Assembly: GCF_001625195.1 (NCBI RefSeq)
Contig: NC_054391.1
Coordinates: 7,203,157 to 7,267,156, forward strand
From: Drechmeria coniospora
Taxonomy: Eukaryota > Ascomycota > Sordariomycetes > Hypocreales > Ophiocordycipitaceae
Reading direction: 5' to 3'
DNA length: 64,000 bases
The first letter of the stretch is position 1. Every line of letters begins with the position of its first letter. This document shows, piece after piece, positions 3,747-63,547 of the stretch. Below the pieces are notes generated by a model. The model had not been told where the DNA came from, did no database searches, and was given only the letters and a program-made list of their open reading frames with translations. Made by a program: the position numbers and the translations under genes.

Positions 3747-4510
3747 GACGGGTTTGACAAATTTGGGCGCAGTCAGGTGGATGCCCTCGCCGTCTCTCCG
3801 CCGCCGTCTACCACGCCGGCTGTGGATCGCACCCTCTGATTTGGCCTCTCGTTTCTCATCAGAATGCCGACGGAACAAGAATTTGTCAACGTCTTCTTAG
3901 GAACATTTCCCCTTGCACGTAATTTACAGATCACCCGTCATCCTACGCTCAGCTGGCTACTGCCAGTTTGGGTGCATTGGACACATCATGGTTATGGATT
4001 TTGCAATATGGAGGAGTCTGCAGTTGTTAATCATGAGGAGAGCTTCCATTCCATGGATAATGGCCAGCATATGCCCAGTCGGCCACTGGAGTCTTGACGA
4101 CCTGCGCTCAGCTGTGGTGACCCCACCGCCCAGAGTTCGAATCTGCGATGACTTTGTTTTTGGGCGAATGGGCGGGGGCTGAGAGACAGGTTTGCTAGCA
4201 AAGCCCCGTAGGCGTGCGGAGGACTGTATTTTGTTTTACGCCGGGGACGCTCACGCCGAAGCAGGACAAAGAAGAAAAGTTAATTGTGTCAAGTAGCTGC
4301 GAGGCTCATTAATACACGACTTGTTTTATTATCCCACCTTTGGATTTTGCTTCCAATAGGTCATATCTTTAACGACTCAGGCGGAGTGAAATATACCTAA
4401 CCCCCCAACGTGTTTCAAGAACTTTCATGCCGTACAGTACGTGATGCTGCCTCGCTCATGTGCGCGGGAAGTGTTCGACATTCGAAATGCTTCGTCTATA
4501 TACACTGTCT
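3747..4510. other. convergent intergenic region, 3' UTRs
   Basis: Lies between the stop of the PUF gene (+) and the stop of the KPWE-motif gene (-). No coding frame with sense was found. A GTTCGAATC stretch at 4134 resembles a tRNA T-loop, but no matching A box or acceptor stem could be paired, so no tRNA is called. Confidence 0.4.
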
Positions 4511-5352
4511 TTACAGCGCATTGTTACTGTGAGCGTTGCAAGCCGATGCTGCGCTCTCTTGGGCCGTCTCCGAGGCCTCAGTTTCGAGCGGCGGGAAGTC
4601 TTCATCAAGCGATTGGGGGAGATGGGCTTCAGGAATGGCAGCCGCTGCGTTCTTTTCCCACGGCTTTTTGGGCGCTGTACGAGCGCCGACCGGCTTTACG
4701 GACTACAAAACGAGGTAAGAAAGGATGACGGTGGGATGGCGCGTTCGACTGCTTTCAAGACTTACCCTGTCTCTAGCAACGGTGTTGGGTATTTGCTTGA
4801 TGCCAGGGATTGTCTTCCCCTCCTGAAGCAGCTGAAGCATCTCGGCGAAGGCCATGGGGTAATTCGGCTCCCCGCCGGCTTCGTCTGCGGATCCCGAGGT
4901 AGGTTTGCGATCAAGGTAAAGCTCCGCCTTGGGAGCTGCTTGCTGCCATGGCAGGGCAGATCCCTGTGGTTGCTCCGTTTGCTTCGAGGGATCGAGATGG
5001 TTCTGCGGTAGAACTTGGGGTGGATGATGATCGGGGTGCCGAGCGAGCCATTCTCGGTAACGATCAAAGTCGATTTGGACGCCTATTCGCTGGGCGTAGT
5101 AGAAGATGCGCGCACGGGTGGCGATGTCGGCAGGCGAGTCTTGCGCGTTCTGGAGGATAGCAGCGAGTCCAGACTGCGTCCATCAGCAAGGAGTGAGGAA
5201 TAGCACAGGCAAGGCAGAGGCATATGCACCAGGAAGGCCTCATCCTTGGCCCAGGGGTAGGAATCGAAGGCCTGGTAGATGGGGTCTTGGTCGGTGAATG
5301 AGCGAACGCCATCCGTCTCGGACACTGCCGACGGCTCGTGCTGCTGAGCCAT
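4511..5352 (-). CDS. small Pex14-like KPWE-motif protein
   Basis: Three exons on the minus strand: 5352-5230, 5173-4766 and 4702-4511, joining in phase to 240 residues. Introns are GTGCAT...ACGCAG (56 nt) and GTAAGT...TTGTAG (63 nt). The central segment has a helical region (ILQNAQDSPADIATRARIFY, then QRIGVQIDFDRYREWL). It then carries YPMAFAEMLQLLQEGKTIPG followed by IKQIPNTV, and after the second intron KKPWE. This order matches the KPWE domain known from the C-terminus of some Pex14 proteins and from short fungal orphans. There is no Pex14 N-terminal domain or membrane segment. Function is therefore unknown; a peroxisomal link rests only on family resemblance. It shares a 569-bp divergent promoter with the PP2C gene. 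Confidence 0.75.
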
Positions 5353-55328: not shown

Positions 55329-56860
55329 TCATATGTCTCGGTTAATTACCTCTTGGGGCATCGGAGAACTTTCTGCAGGTAGCAGTTCGTAGACTTTAGT
55401 TTTCTCCTTCCATGTTTCGGAGAATCGCCGCTTCAGGAGCCAGTATATTACGGCCAAAATGGCGATCCATAATCCTAAAACACACGAAATCGTGACTGGG
55501 CGATTCGAAAAGTCTCCCAAAATAGATCCTCTGCATCCCACCTATTAGTCGTATTCGTCAGATAGGGTCATGGGTCAACTTGCAGAGCGACATTGAGTGC
55601 TCCAAATAGAAGAACCAAAGTCCCAATAAAGCGATGAGTTCTCAGCAAACCCCCGCTAGTTCCGGTCTTTTTAAATTTCTCATGATGGCTGTACCCGATA
55701 AAGGCTTGACATGGCACTAATACTGCCAAAGCAGCCCCGATCGTAATATGAACTAGAGCCGGACCCTGAAGCTGTTAGTATTTTATAACGCACTGCCAGC
55801 AGTTTGGGGTCACTTGCAGTGATTGGCAGTTGAACCAGTCTTGCGCCAGCAATAACTACTCCTAGCTCAAAGAGCAAAACCGAGATGATCTGGACGATAG
55901 CATGTACCTTAACGGGCAAGTAGTGCTGTCTCAATAGAAAGGCACCACATGGGAAGGCAATGAGAAACACAAAAGCCATAATAAGGCCGTGCGCTATCTT
56001 CGCGACCCCTACCCGAGATGGAACCAGTCGGGCTGTGACCCGGTTCGGGGAAATGCATAGGGGCTGCTGCATTTCGCCATTGGCTGGTGCCGAAAGACTG
56101 GCGCTAAAGCTGCCTTTGAAACATGTCAGCGATCGCAAATGATTGACAGATCGAGTAGAAAAAATCCCACCGTAAGCTGTATGCAAGTGGAGGGGTTGAT
56201 CAACATCGTTTGATTTCATCTCTTGTCTGTTGTTGAATGACCATATCCAATCCTGCTCTGTGTTCATAGAGCGAATGCAGGAATGGCACACAACTTCAGC
56301 TTCGTAATAGCCACTCGAAACTCTTTCGTTCCTCATAACGGTTAGAGCCTGCTGGCGCTCGTCTACAGTCGGTGGGATGTGGCCACTGCATGCATGAGTA
56401 TAGAGAATCGGGAGGGGAGGAGGTGGAAGTTCATTCGTGCTTACCTGGTAGACCGAACGCTCACAGTGAGATCTGTTCAACTGCATGATCAGTTCTAGTT
56501 CTGTCTGAAAAAAAAACACGAACCAGAGGAGTAGGTCTAACTTTGACTCTCGGGAGAGGGGTGAAAAACAAACATAAGAGCATTTCTCATAAGTGTTCCA
56601 GGACCAAGTGCCAACCATCCCTTTCCGGAACGAAAGTGGCCTGAGAATAAGAAATGAATGTCTCCCCGTGCAGAAGCAATATTCGATATGGCAATGCATA
56701 AGTCTAAAGCCAAAATGTCGTCCTTGGCACAAAACTGAGGATTCTTGCTAGTATTGCACTCTGGGATAGCTTCCGCGAGTCGCGAAAGCATCCAAAAAGC
56801 AATCAAGTTGAAAATAATCATAATGGAAAACTGAGAAATGCGAAGGACACGGCTAGTCAT
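55329..56860 (-). CDS. DOMON / cytochrome b561 membrane protein
   Basis: Predicted transmembrane electron carrier: an extracellular DOMON haem/sugar-binding domain followed by a b561 core. Exons inferred: 56860-56542, 56472-56445, 56385-55818, 55765-55580 and 55541-55329, giving about 437 residues in phase. A signal peptide is likely (FSIMIIFNLIAFWMLSRLAEA). DOMON features include GWLALGPGTLMRNALMFVF and, across two introns, NLTVSVRSTSGHIPP. The b561 part shows four His candidates for the haem: HGLIMAFVF, VKVHAIVQ, VHITIGAAL and RTHRFIG, then a last membrane span (TISCVLGLWIAILAVIYWLL). Intron 3 appears to be GC-AG (GCAAGT...CTTCAG, 52 nt, branch TACTAAC). Intron 4 as drawn is only 38 nt, so its borders are uncertain; exon 2 is just 28 nt. 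It is the first gene of the AT-rich right end; cluster membership is unproven. Confidence 0.8.
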
Positions 56861-57480
56861 TGGTTGCAGGACGCACTATTTCGACGAGATGGGCGAGATG
56901 TTGTTTGCAGTTTGTCAACCCCTGCGCCATCCCGCTTATTCTTATTGACTGATGCAGAAACCTCGAAGAATGATGGAATAAACCTGCCACAGGCTACATG
57001 GATTTATCGCCTATAAATCAATGAGTTAAGTATATGGAATATCACCGAAAATTAAGACGTCACACGCGAGTGGAGACGCAGCTTACATGCGTCGATGTTA
57101 CGACGTGCCGCTACGACTTCGCGAAAAACATCCTTGCATCATTTCATCCCCTACGGAGTACCCCGTATACAACCAAGTATACGCAGTAATACAAAGTACT
57201 TGTACAGTACAAGTACTCCGTACTGTACTTGTAACGCAGTGGATCGTAGGATCGTAGTGAGCCTTTGAACTAGTTACTTTTACCCCAGCACTACTATATC
57301 AACACCTGGCGCCCGCTTCGTACCTATAAGTAGTATTACTGCAACTCGCATCCAGCTCAACGAGGCACGGTATCAGTGCATTCCTCGTACTTGGTCCAAG
57401 ATTTTTTTGGGGCATAAACAGTCCTCATTTGTTGCCATTTTGCCGTCAATTTTGGCTGTCGACCGCCGTTACTCTCTAAA
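56861..57480. promoter_or_regulatory. divergent intergenic region between b561 gene and GST-like gene
   Basis: The 620-bp interval lies between two outward-facing starts. It holds TACGGAGTA/GTACAAGTAC words at about 57150-57240. No further gene is seen. Shared regulation is possible from layout only. Confidence 0.4.
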
Positions 57481-58185
57481 ATGGACTCTGCGGACACATT
57501 TCACCTGCACACGTTTTATTCGTCATCATGCTGCCAGCGTATTATTATTGCTGCCCAGCTTAAGTCGATTCCTCTCAAATTTTCATATATAAACCTCACA
57601 AAAGACGAGCAGCGAAAAGACGATTATATGAGAAGATTCAATCCAAGCGGGAGCGTCCCTACTCTTGTGGTCTCTAGTGACACTCGTCCAGAGTTGATTA
57701 TTCGACAGTCTGCTACAGTACTGGAATACTTCGAAGAGCGTTTTCCTACCCAGCACCCATTACTTCCACCAACAGACCAGCCTATGCACCGTGCACTTGT
57801 ACGAGATTTCGTCAATATCATTACAAATGACGTTCAGCCGCCAACAAACTCCCGAATTGCAAAGCGCATAAGGGCGCTTCGGGGTAAACTTGATGATCAA
57901 ATTGAGTTTGTTAAGACTGTATTTATTGATGGATTAGGAGCTTATGAAGCTCTACTCGTTCAAACAGGGGCTGAGTCGCAGAGCAGGGGTTTCACAGTAG
58001 GAGAGGAAATTACAATGGCAGACATCTGCCTCATTCCAGCGGTAGACCAAGCCTTGATTTACAAGTTAGATTTGGGGTTTGTTCCTAACATAATGAGAAT
58101 CTACGAGAATCTCAAGAAAATGGCAGCATTTCAAGCAGCTGACTGGAGACGGCAGGAGGATACACCTGAGGAGCATAGAGTTTAG
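57481..58185 (+). CDS. zeta-class glutathione S-transferase / maleylacetoacetate isomerase-like
   Basis: Single-exon protein of 234 residues. The N-terminal thioredoxin-like domain has SSSCCQRIIIAAQLKSIPLK, matching the zeta-GST active-site pattern SSCSxRVRIAL, with Ser and Cys kept. It then has YMRRFNPSGSVPTLVV, the cis-Pro region, and RQSATVLEYFEERFP, the glutathione-binding SxxILEYL block. The C-terminal helical domain ends with EEITMADICLIPAVDQALIY, the family's N-capping Asp helix. Zeta GSTs isomerise maleylacetoacetate in tyrosine breakdown, and similar enzymes occur in secondary-metabolite clusters as isomerases or for thiol addition. Given its neighbours and AT-rich composition, a tailoring or protective role beside the RiPP genes is possible; a paralogue of the true maiA elsewhere in the genome would favour that. 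Confidence 0.88.
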   Translation: MDSADTFHLHTFYSSSCCQRIIIAAQLKSIPLKFSYINLTKDEQRKDDYMRRFNPSGSVPTLVVSSDTRPELIIRQSATVLEYFEERFPTQHPLLPPTDQPMHRALVRDFVNIITNDVQPPTNSRIAKRIRALRGKLDDQIEFVKTVFIDGLGAYEALLVQTGAESQSRGFTVGEEITMADICLIPAVDQALIYKLDLGFVPNIMRIYENLKKMAAFQAADWRRQEDTPEEHRV

Positions 58186-59652: not shown

Positions 59653-60354
59653 ATGCGCTTTCAACACACCTATGATGAGCCGCATCAATCCGGAGATTCT
59701 CATCCCGGTGACCAAAATTCCATGGGATCTTTAATTCGGAAAAGGCTTCCATGGCTTATTTTAGGAGTCTCTTTGATTATTGCTGTTGGTTTGTTCCTGT
59801 TTCAATTATTGGACAGGACGGAACCGGTCTGGATAAGGTACAATACTAATGGAAGTATTGGACCTAAGTATCAGCTTCAATTTAGTCACAGGAATGTTAG
59901 CAAATGGGCTGCAAAAACTCCTCATACCCAAGGCGAGTGGGCCCTTCGAATCGACGACCAGGCTATGATTCCAGCCAATCTATGGGACGAGGAGGAGGAG
60001 CATTATCAGCAGTGGTTCCGAAAACACTACCCTGAAACTGATGAGATCCGAAAGAAGGAACTTTACATTAATCCGAATTTTCTTGGAGACCCATACTCGA
60101 TACAAGTCAAAGCCGATAAGCGTTTTCACACAGCTCATTGTGTGCTGGCGCTACGTCGATACTGGAAAGCTCGGGAGTCAGGTCGCCATGTTTGCCCCCG
60201 AGATATTGATTACAGGCACATGAAGCATTGTCTTGATTCACTTGATGAGCTAGCGTTTCCTGATAACACTAAATTTACTAGCACTGAGCTACAGAATAAT
60301 ACCTCAATGGATGGGCATATTGTGCTATTGTGGAAGACGAAGATTTGTTGGTAG
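59653..60354 (+). CDS. UstYa-like (DUF3328) membrane oxidase protein 1
   Basis: Intronless 233-residue protein from ATG 59653. It has a short cytosolic end, one membrane span (about 33-53, LPWLILGVSLIIAVGLFLFQ) and a lumenal domain. Both DUF3328/UstYa motifs HxxHC are present: HTAHC (159-163, followed by VLALRRYW) and HMKHC (189-193, followed by LDSL). UstYa-type proteins are required for oxidative cyclisation of the core peptide in fungal dikaritin RiPPs (known for ustiloxin, asperipin, phomopsin). The part after the second motif differs from the usual LRQxxxCxxD: it reads LDSLDELAFPDNTKF and stops 33 residues later, so the C-terminus is short or diverged. The open frame continues upstream without ATG. 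It lies 2.7 kb from the precursor gene, which has the same orientation. Confidence 0.85.
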   Translation: MRFQHTYDEPHQSGDSHPGDQNSMGSLIRKRLPWLILGVSLIIAVGLFLFQLLDRTEPVWIRYNTNGSIGPKYQLQFSHRNVSKWAAKTPHTQGEWALRIDDQAMIPANLWDEEEEHYQQWFRKHYPETDEIRKKELYINPNFLGDPYSIQVKADKRFHTAHCVLALRRYWKARESGRHVCPRDIDYRHMKHCLDSLDELAFPDNTKFTSTELQNNTSMDGHIVLLWKTKICW

Positions 60355-60967: not shown

Positions 60968-62052
60968 CTAGATCTGCGACCCTCCATGTCGCATTCCTCT
61001 ACCATAGTCAGGTACACCAGATATTGACCCTCTATTGGTCGTCCAATCTCTCAATTTATTGAAGTCTCGGCAAGTGTGGACTTGGCTGGTGTCCATGACA
61101 TCTAAACCTACACTTGGCCAAAATCTGGTTGGAATTGGGGTGAAATCGGAACAACATTGCACAGACTGACGAATGACATCAAGGCAGTGGTCTTATGGAG
61201 ACTATCAGCATGGCTTACAAAACGTATGTAGGTGGAGGGTCGTTATGCTTACCAGTGTGAATTCGGCCATATTGCCCATGGGGTAACTTGTAGTATTCTT
61301 GATCGATGGCTTTTCTCACTAGATTCTGAGCGGCCTTAGCATCTTATGCATTATGTTTAGTTTTGTATTAGAATGAAAGGTGCTTACCACACAATGAAGT
61401 ACATGAAGAACTTCGATCCTGGTCCGTTGGTCAGCGGTATCATTGGAAGCCACGAAATGAACATACCCAGCCATATATCCATATTCATTGCGATATTTTT
61501 GGTAGTCGTTTCCCCAAATATTCTTCGCTTCCGTTTCTGAAACATTGAACCATCGATCTATTTCATTAGAAGTGTGAAGAGATCGTAGTGACATGCACAA
61601 ACCTTTAAGCAACTCATCCCACGCCAAATCAATCGCAGGGGACGGAATCCCGACGAAACGAGTATCGTCTGGATCGTATTCCAAATACTCGTTTCCTTCT
61701 TCATCAAAAGCCGGACTTCCAGAGAATTTGATCTCTTTATACGATATTTCTTGACGGGCAAAATCTATGCTTTCTCATTAATACCAGTTCTCTGCATGCG
61801 AATCGATTTTTACTGACATAGATCGGTCCGGAAGCCCGCGAGCTTTTCATCAGTAGCTGAGAGTGCTATTAATTGCGCGAGCAGTAAAAAGGTTGTTCCA
61901 GCAAGAAAAGTAGTTGAATATATCCAAGGCCTGGGAGACTGAAACACTGTCTTCCAATGAGGGGTTTCTTGCTTTCCATCGATACTAAGTTCGTCTGTCG
62001 GAACTTTGAAGAATTCATAAGATTTAAGCCAAGAATAGTATAGGAAATTCAT
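60968..62052 (-). CDS. UstYa-like (DUF3328) membrane oxidase protein 2
   Basis: Five exons, 62052-61818, 61764-61603, 61557-61388, 61325-61253 and 61191-60968, join in phase to 287 residues. Order: cytosolic start, one membrane span (about 41-65, WIYSTTFLAGTTFLLLAQLI), then the lumenal DUF3328 domain. First motif HVLHC (184-188) continues across an intron as VNLVRKAIDQEYY, the usual HxLHCxNxxRKxxxxxYY block. Second motif HTDHC (212-216) continues as LDVIRQSVQCCSDFTPIPTR, the usual HxDHClDxLRQxxxCxxDxTPxP block. The end (VMDTSQVHTCRDFNKLRDWT) is also typical. It is thus the more complete of the two copies. It is transcribed away from the precursor gene across a shared 961-bp promoter. By family knowledge it should act on the precursor in the secretory pathway. 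Confidence 0.9.
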
Positions 62053-63013
62053 CGCGGCTTCCCAAAGATGAAACCATAAGCCTTTGCTAGAATATTGGTT
62101 TAAACGGAGAAGGGCGTGTAACAGGACGACAGATGCATTCAATCGACGACTCAATCCTAAATTGAATCGTCGCTAGTCACAGTGTAGGGGTGTGTATATA
62201 TTGACAAAGGCAAGTCAATGCGTGGGCAAACTGTCTTAGAAAAGGATTACGTAATCGAAGCCTTGCGATTACTAGGGGATAAGTAGTAGGTCGCATCAGC
62301 GCAACCTCCTTTTCCCTCTCTTCGTACCAAATTGAATCATTGAAAGAGATCTATTGTTACCAGTTTCCCCCAGAACCGAACCAACAGTAGGATCATTTTG
62401 GCTGGCCGTGATATCACGAACTGCGGGAGCAATCCGGAGAATGACCTCCCGGATTGGGAAATAACTGCGGATCGGCGCACAGCCACAATGCAAAATGTTG
62501 CATGAGTCCACATCAGCCTGTTGGTTACGCTGAACTGAAGGTCTAGATGTCACACGGAGCGTTTCTCAGCCGTGTTATGAGTTGCATTGCATGATCCTCT
62601 TTCAACTCTTGCCCATTGATCTAGAACCTGTTATGCAAACAGCGCCTCATGCCAACGGACTTATTTCCCGCACAATGGATCCCTCGGCGATGCGGCTCTG
62701 TGCCGAGGCGAGCGTTGAGCTTAGCGTTCCAGTACATTGGGGGCCGGCCAGAGGTAAACGTTAGTTTTGCCATGTACTAAGTGTATCGGAATTGAGACAG
62801 AAGTTGCTGGCAGGCTTACTTCTGGCCGATTTCCGATGTAATAGAACGGCAAGACTATCATCCGCACTCGTTAAGAATACGACGAACAATCTGGCAATCT
62901 GTCACTACATAAAACCCAGGAGTTTCACCAGTCAAAAATTGACTTCCAGTCAGCATCTCGCACTTTGTACTACCCAATATAAATTAAGACGGAGCTTAGC
63001 AAAATTCCTCAAA
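62053..63013. promoter_or_regulatory. shared divergent promoter of UstYa-like gene 2 and the RiPP precursor
   Basis: This 961-bp interval lies between two outward-facing starts and contains no supported gene. On the precursor side, TATA-like words are TACATAAAA at 62906 and TATAAAT at 62978; the second sits only 30 bp before the ATG, so the first is the better candidate. An inverted repeat of CGG type (62682-62708) is listed separately. A further CCGG-containing pair (TCCGGAGAATGACCTCCCGGA near 62433) also recalls zinc-cluster regulator sites. Confidence 0.5.
62682..62708. promoter_or_regulatory. inverted repeat CCTCGGC-N13-GCCGAGG, candidate regulator site
   Basis: Perfect 7-bp arms separated by 13 bp lie about 305 bp before the precursor ATG. 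Each arm contains a CGG/CCG triplet, the half-site type used by Zn2Cys6 regulators that control fungal clusters. No regulator gene is in the window, so function is inference. Confidence 0.4.
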
Positions 63014-63547
63014 ATGAGAATCGAAACCGCAATTAAATTCACAGCCGTTGCTGCGGCTAGCAGCGTGCTCTCGGCACCAATGGCGGCTCCAAAAGCCATG
63101 AAAATTGATAGCTTGGCCAACCACCCACCTTTGAGTCCACAGGCTGTTGAAATGGCATTAAAGGAATGGGAAACTCCAGAGCCATGGGAAAAGCGCCAGC
63201 AGATGCCCTATGAAAAGGAGTTCCCTAACGTCAAGCGCCAGCAGATGCCCTATGAAAAGGAGTTCCCCAACGTCAAGCGCCAGCAGATGCCTTATGAAAA
63301 GGAGTTCCCCAACGTCAAGCGCCAGCAGATGCCCTATGAAAAGGAGTTCCCCAACGTCAAGCGCCAGCAGATGCCCTATGAAAAGGAGTTCCCTAACGTC
63401 AAGCGCCAGCAGATGCCTTATGAAAAGGAGTTCCCCAACGTCAAGCGCCAGCAGATGCCTTATGAAAAGGAGTTCCCCAACGTCAAGCGCCAGCAGATGC
63501 CTTATGAAAAGGAGTTCCCCAATTCCAAGGTTGAGCTCACTGGCTAA
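63014..63547 (+). CDS. secreted repeat precursor of a dikaritin-type RiPP
   Basis: Intronless 177-residue protein. ATG 63014 (CAAAATGAG) is chosen because it begins a clear signal peptide (MRIETAIKFTAVAAASSVLS); the longer open frame upstream lacks a sensible start. A spacer follows (ANHPPLSPQAVEMALKEWET) and ends PEPWEKR. From residue 62 to the end there are eight tandem copies of QQMPYEKEFPN; seven continue VKR and the eighth ends SKVELTG. KR dipeptides at 60-61 and after copies 1-7 are Kex2 sites, which would release 12-residue units QQMPYEKEFPNV after trimming. Signal peptide, KR-bounded identical units with aromatic residues (one Tyr, one Phe per unit) and two UstYa-type neighbours fit the ustiloxin/asperipin/epichloecyclin precursor plan. 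The unit is not one I know. A repetitive secreted wall protein or a Kex2-processed hydrophobin-like or pheromone protein is the alternative; the UstYa neighbours argue against it. Confidence 0.9.
   Translation: MRIETAIKFTAVAAASSVLSAPMAAPKAMKIDSLANHPPLSPQAVEMALKEWETPEPWEKRQQMPYEKEFPNVKRQQMPYEKEFPNVKRQQMPYEKEFPNVKRQQMPYEKEFPNVKRQQMPYEKEFPNVKRQQMPYEKEFPNVKRQQMPYEKEFPNVKRQQMPYEKEFPNSKVELTG
63197..63523 (+). repeat. eight 42-bp tandem units encoding the putative core peptide
   Basis: Units begin at 63197, 63239, 63281, 63323, 63365, 63407, 63449 and 63491 (last one partial, 33 bp). All differences are third-position changes at two prolines (CCC/CCT) except AAT for AAC and the altered end in unit 8. 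Prolines by unit: CCC-CCT, CCC-CCC, CCT-CCC, CCC-CCC, CCC-CCT, CCT-CCC, CCT-CCC, CCT-CCC. Units 1 and 5, 2 and 4, and 3, 6 and 7 are thus identical in DNA. Confidence 0.97.

Follow-up and report, generated by a model that had tools for sequence, protein, structure and literature searches.

The repeat gene and its neighbors

The window, the 64,000-nucleotide stretch of the Drechmeria coniospora genome analyzed here, contains a single-exon gene on the forward strand (63014-63547) that encodes a putative peptide precursor. An uninterrupted 177-codon frame, running from an ATG at 63014 to a TAA at 63545-63547, specifies 177 amino acids. The N-terminal end reads MRIETAIKFTAVAAASSVLSAPMAAPKA and is signal-like by eye; hydropathy and inspection suggest a likely signal peptide, MRIETAIKFTAVAAASSVLSA (63014-63076, +), with a presumed cleavage point, and hydropathy peaks over the 12 residues FTAVAAASSVLS (mean 1.59). 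A spacer or leader (63077-63196, +) follows, terminating in WEKR, the first KR site. The remainder is a repeat array of eight 42-bp (14-residue) units (63197-63532, +): units 1-7 read QQMPYEKEFPNVKR, and unit 8 reads QQMPYEKEFPNSKV, ending in NSKV and then ELTG. The repeated unit comprises 12 residues, QQMPYEKEFPN(V/S), in eight copies, seven of them closed by KR. This is exactly the plan that the preliminary description had given for 63014-63547, i.e., a KR-terminated spacer followed by eight tandem units, seven of them KR-closed. Provided that the signal peptide is real, the protein fits the definition of a KEP, or Kex2-processed repeat protein (Kex2 sites between the repeats, behind a signal peptide), its KR sites numbering eight with the WEKR of the spacer included.

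The array received the highest Tandem Repeats Finder score (622) of the 21 rows returned for the window, and a six-frame search located it at one place in the genome (one match among five candidates scored). No Pfam family matches the precursor at E 1. The preliminary description had named a match to a structural wall-protein family as one outcome that would count against it, and none appeared in this Pfam comparison.

Several frames are open over the array because the 42-bp unit is a multiple of three. Specifically, one other frame runs forward (RCPMKRSSPTSSAS..., KR included) and one runs in reverse, and no signal-like start was seen in either of these alternative array frames. Units 1-7 vary at two base positions, both of them third codon positions that are silent in the precursor frame, and the same two sites alter residues in both other open frames. 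Two silent sites would carry little weight by themselves, but combined with the signal-like start they favor 63014-63547 as the coding frame. The array was also evaluated against chance, using as a rule at least three identical 4-mers beside KR within one open frame. No KR-repeat frame satisfied the rule in the 77 kb used as a control (window 1-57000 and the stretches L003 and L004), and the repeat frame is thus more than a chance occurrence.

Head to head with the precursor gene lies a UstYa gene (60968-62052, -). It was identified by a genome search and a manual gene model, built from sequence alone, with six exons (62052-61818, 61764-61603, 61557-61467, 61418-61388, 61325-61253, and 61191-60968, all -) and five GT-AG introns of 45-62 bp. 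The 271-residue product matches PF11807 at 122.5 bits (cut-off 25 bits; E 3.1e-35) over profile positions 10-219 of 220. The spliced model carries both HxxHC motifs, as HVLHC and HTDHC, and one hydrophobic stretch is evident by eye near the N-terminus; against solved structures, the protein gave no match at E 1. The 961 bp between the divergent start codons of the two genes (62053-63013) could possibly serve as a shared promoter.

Beyond the UstYa gene, a single-exon frame (59722-60354, +) encodes a short protein of 210 residues. It has a hydrophobic stretch near its N-terminus (by eye) and the motif pair HTAHC and HMKHC, 30 residues apart. The protein stops 41 residues past the start of the second motif, and the rest of the UstYa domain is missing. 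Its PF11807 score, 13.7 bits (E 0.058), falls below the cut-off of 25, and comparison with solved structures returned one meaningless match (E 0.97). Given the low score and the presence of both motifs, we consider this product UstYa-like at most. No open frame in the same 77 kb of control sequence has two HxxHC motifs within 60 residues of each other.

A frame of similar layout occurs elsewhere in the genome (L024:7213-8091, -; C2:6687.2-6688.1 kb). Along with a hydrophobic stretch, it contains HVRHC and HTHHC motifs 32 residues apart; it is not among the PF11807 genome-search matches and lies at a UstYa locus that has a GGCYNYI repeat frame, described below. The two short proteins barely align, each having been compared against a one-sequence database: BLASTP gave E 0.75 across the motifs and E 0.27 for an alignment outside them, and phmmer gave E 0.02 (0.7 bits). 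We therefore claim a common layout and not demonstrated homology.

Two additional genes precede the short UstYa-like gene. One encodes a glutathione S-transferase (57481-58185, +; PF13409 at 42.8 bits and PF13417 at 38.2 bits). The other, with several exons (55329-56875, -), could encode a cytochrome-domain or b561 membrane protein, and its Pfam matches are all sub-threshold (CDH-cyt, 18.3 bits with a cut-off of 27; Cytochrom_B561, 13.3 bits with a cut-off of 23). Whether either gene belongs to the cluster is uncertain.

The cluster lies inside a block some 25 kb long that is richer in AT than its surroundings. Counted per 2 kb, GC content stays at 0.42-0.47 between about 54 kb in the window and about 6 kb into L003, a span that takes in stretch L002 (first base at window position 63001). 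Elsewhere in the window the values are 0.495-0.640, and farther rightward, in L004, they are 0.54-0.67. To the right of the cluster, this AT-rich island also holds five frames of one family that end in CARVSCSY(N/D)(A/S)AIWWC (L002:3087-3467; L002:6774-7193, -; L003:1662-2093; L003:3637-4044; and L003:6011-6418). Four of the five were compared with Pfam, and none had a match above cut-off.

Related loci and a pheromone gene elsewhere in the genome

A genome search with PF11807 yielded at least 17 matched stretches, which we grouped into five UstYa loci. Reading 10-kb stretches around each revealed KR-closed repeat frames at three of the five, the window locus included. The second repeat scan accepted any repeated 6-mer, and many low-complexity frames were set aside by eye. 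A stricter rule retains two of the five loci, those of the window precursor and of L025; it undercounts, because it misses both the L023 precursor and the pheromone frame described below.

At the second locus, the repeat frame (L025:3587-4319, +; C2:6693.6-6694.3 kb) accompanies UstYa stretches at C2:6690.9-6692.2 kb. Within it, GGCYNYIKR alternates with segments such as DGVQYAVPEGCPEAAPDAKVKR; the signal-like start is upstream and probably separated from this frame by an intron. By its repeat pattern, this one protein may give rise to two different peptides. The third KR-repeat frame (L023, approximately 3900-4700, -; C2:841.9-842.7 kb) lies about 2 kb from a UstYa stretch at C2:839.6-839.8 kb. 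It contains six units of the type ENHVDVAATRSGW(L/I)Y(V/S)KR, with KR closing five of the six. Downstream of a signal-like start, the units are divided between two frames, and introns probably separate the repeats.

No credible KR-repeat precursor was found in the stretches read around the other two UstYa loci. At C2:340-350 kb, a signal-like, Tyr-rich repeat protein of the GYADYGDY type, which does not contain KR, is encoded about 3 kb from the UstYa stretch (L026:1172-1586, -; C2:341.2-341.6 kb). Two overlapping opposite-strand frames with RR or KR at the same locus are of low complexity and were dropped, no signal-like start being seen. At C2:9989-9999 kb, the repeat scans flagged nothing.

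With respect to processing enzymes, the genome contains one P-domain match, consistent with Kex2. A six-frame, exon-by-exon genome search for the tyrosinase family PF00264 gave three matched stretches, on contigs C1 and C2. There was no match on C3, the contig of the window; a tyrosinase gene in the cluster is a mark of the ustiloxin/phomopsin subtype.

The genome also encodes a separate repeat precursor of pheromone type. The pattern WC-x3-G-x2-CW has 13 genome matches, and a narrower pheromone pattern has none. Four of the 13 fall within about 0.6 kb (C3:8871480-8872091), where a 250-residue frame (L040, C3:8871101-8872500) opens with a signal-like sequence and carries WCTRPGSGCW four times; K-x-KR follows three of the copies and KKR the other. 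From this arrangement, the frame is very likely the alpha-pheromone precursor, and the window gene is therefore something else. Another four matches constitute a repeat with 459-bp spacing (C2:9820.3-9821.7 kb, -; L036-L039), in which four near-identical stretches potentially encode WC(N/H)CTGPSCW. The remaining five are scattered single matches. We also considered descent of the window precursor from the pheromone precursor, given that both contain a PEPW and an EKEF stretch, and found no support for it: 168 of 2000 shuffles align equally well.

A dikaritin-type reading and its alternatives

We consider it likely that the window gene specifies a dikaritin-type RiPP precursor: cleavage by Kex2 would occur at KR, and the adjacent UstYa would oxidatively crosslink the peptide via its single Tyr. 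The preliminary description had arrived at this class from the precursor itself. The class assignment has since gained support from the head-to-head UstYa gene 961 bp away and from the KR-repeat frames at two other UstYa loci.

The predicted sequence of events is as follows. The precursor would enter the secretory pathway, Kex2 would cut after each KR, and a carboxypeptidase would trim KR from the released peptides. The N-terminal Gln could convert to pyroglutamate. UstYa would crosslink the peptide oxidatively through Tyr5, and a first guess for the ring partner of Tyr5 is residue 7, i.e., i+2 as in ustiloxin. The preliminary description had put forward Tyr5 and, less firmly, Phe9 as crosslink positions. 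Each precursor could supply as many as seven copies of one peptide, together with a longer peptide from its C-terminus. The calculated [M+H]+ of QQMPYEKEFPNV is 1509.704 for the linear form and 1492.678 for the pyroglutamyl form, minus 2.016 per crosslink. The pathway would be nearer to that of asperipin-2a, which is not known to involve a tyrosinase, than to those of ustiloxin and phomopsin, because the contig gave no tyrosinase match. Tyrosinase is reported as a requirement for ustiloxin and phomopsin, and asperipin-2a as having a single DUF3328 (UstYa-type) gene (PMC7329392).

Survey data bear on this reading. Across 1461 fungal genomes, DUF3328 (UstYa) genes are reported among the 15 nearest genes for 22% of KEPs, and tyrosinase genes show no significant accumulation around KEPs in the same 2020 survey (PMC7329392). 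Tyr is reported in 65.6% of the repeats of UstYa-neighbored KEPs versus 38.2% in the rest (PMC7329392). The double HxxHC has been suggested as a mark of RiPP-related DUF3328 proteins (PMC12048977). The silent variation in units 1-7, the second double-HxxHC protein, and the Kex2-type P-domain match also speak for the reading. Several observations weigh against it: the long, charged unit has no Tyr-x-Ile, the short UstYa-like protein falls short of the Pfam cut-off, the contig gave no tyrosinase match, UstYa proteins are reported to catalyze other reactions too, and a KR-repeat precursor was recognized at three of the five UstYa loci, or at two by the stricter rule.

The foremost alternative is that the precursor is a KEP from which unmodified linear peptides are secreted, acting as signals or on a host, while the UstYa neighbors serve something else. 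By the survey figure above, 78% of KEPs have no UstYa gene among their 15 nearest genes (PMC7329392), and the unit is hydrophilic, unlike known crosslinked cores. Set against this are the divergent UstYa gene 961 bp away, the second double-HxxHC gene beside it, and the one Tyr in each unit, and we judge a purely linear product improbable. Lower still in our estimation is a UstYa-modified peptide that has no ring, altered instead by side-chain hydroxylation or desaturation. UstYa-family proteins are indeed reported to hydroxylate, to chlorinate, and to install dehydroamino acids (PMC12048977, PMC10512285), but cyclization is their main role in the precursor-linked cases described elsewhere in the literature consulted (including PMC7329392), and a ringless product strikes us as distinctly unlikely.

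Two further possibilities merit little weight. Tandem arrays form readily, and this one is open in three frames, which would fit a non-coding minisatellite or a structural repeat protein of the wall or repellent type. The signal-like start, the lack of any Pfam family match at E 1, the KR that closes seven of the eight units and also precedes the first, and base variation that is silent only in the precursor frame all argue against that origin, which we deem very improbable. An alpha-type mating pheromone precursor would share the overall plan of signal-like start, repeats, and KR, but the unit has no WC-x(n)-CW core, a separate WCTRPGSGCW frame exists at C3:8871480-8872091, the spacer plus one unit resembles the pheromone protein no better than do 168 of 2000 shuffles, and pheromone-type precursors in the survey are reported, with three exceptions, to have no UstYa nearby (PMC7329392), such that we give this idea almost no credence.

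Returning to the dikaritin-type reading, a bolder version of it is that the product is a crosslinked peptide of novel chemistry, in which a normal UstYa and a short, divergent double-HxxHC partner together build a long, charged 12-residue ring system. Because a protein of similar layout is encoded at the UstYa locus with the GGCYNYI repeat frame, the short form may represent a distinct type of enzyme in such clusters. We offer this proposal tentatively and regard it as doubtful.

Relation to known peptide systems

The features shared with the dikaritins ustiloxin, phomopsin, and asperipin-2a are a signal-peptide-like start, KR-separated repeats, an adjacent UstYa gene, and a Tyr in the unit. 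There are differences as well. The window unit, at 12 residues, is longer and more charged than known dikaritin cores, a claim of the preliminary description that is upheld, and the window system is known here from genes alone. The ustiloxin/phomopsin subtype has a Tyr-x-Ile core, whereas the window unit has Tyr-Glu-Lys and no Ile. Finally, the window cluster adds the short UstYa-like protein that scores below the Pfam cut-off.

Epichloe, like Drechmeria, is a hypocrealean fungus. The epichloecyclins, encoded by GigA, are described as having, like the window gene, a multicore repeat precursor, longer cores (cyclic nonapeptides), and an internal Tyr. In the GigA cores, as reported, Tyr is crosslinked to an N-terminal Ile, a residue that the window unit does not contain. 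KEPs form a wider class, and most of the members surveyed are reported to have no nearby UstYa gene (PMC7329392). With alpha-pheromone precursors, the likeness is confined to the overall plan: the window precursor has no WC...CW core and no significant similarity to the separate pheromone-type protein of this genome.

The KEP class is large. The 2020 survey of 1461 genomes reports 7878 KEPs, 5318 of them in 838 types and 2560 stand-alone, with 2991 UstYa genes near KEPs (PMC7329392). A 2022 review sets five reported dikaritins against at least 838 repeat-precursor types (PMC10512285).

Searches for earlier records of the peptide gave the following results. When the precursor was compared with a protein database, none of the best 7997 candidates scored reached E 10 or better, and the UstYa protein, compared with the same database, had 213 candidates and none at 0.001. 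UstYa is a large fungal family. That even a member of this family matched nothing implies that the database contains hardly any such fungal proteins, if any, and the result for the precursor thus speaks neither for nor against novelty. Neither QQMPYEKEFPNV nor MPYEKEF was found in the full-text literature searched. The two D. coniospora genome papers report clusters of NRPS/PKS type, and their main texts make no mention of ustiloxin, DUF3328, or RiPP (PMC4792172, PMC4859500). The main texts of two KEP surveys likewise make no mention of Drechmeria, and the gene may stand in their supplementary lists.

Taken on its gene content, the window precursor is likely a further dikaritin, in a class that is already known and well populated. 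Two features could set this cluster apart: its short UstYa-like partner and the length and charge of its unit. D. coniospora is described as having been used extensively in studies of Caenorhabditis elegans immunity. If a secreted crosslinked peptide is indeed produced, its role would be testable in this tractable host–parasite pair, and the precursor sequence supplies the exact masses to look for.
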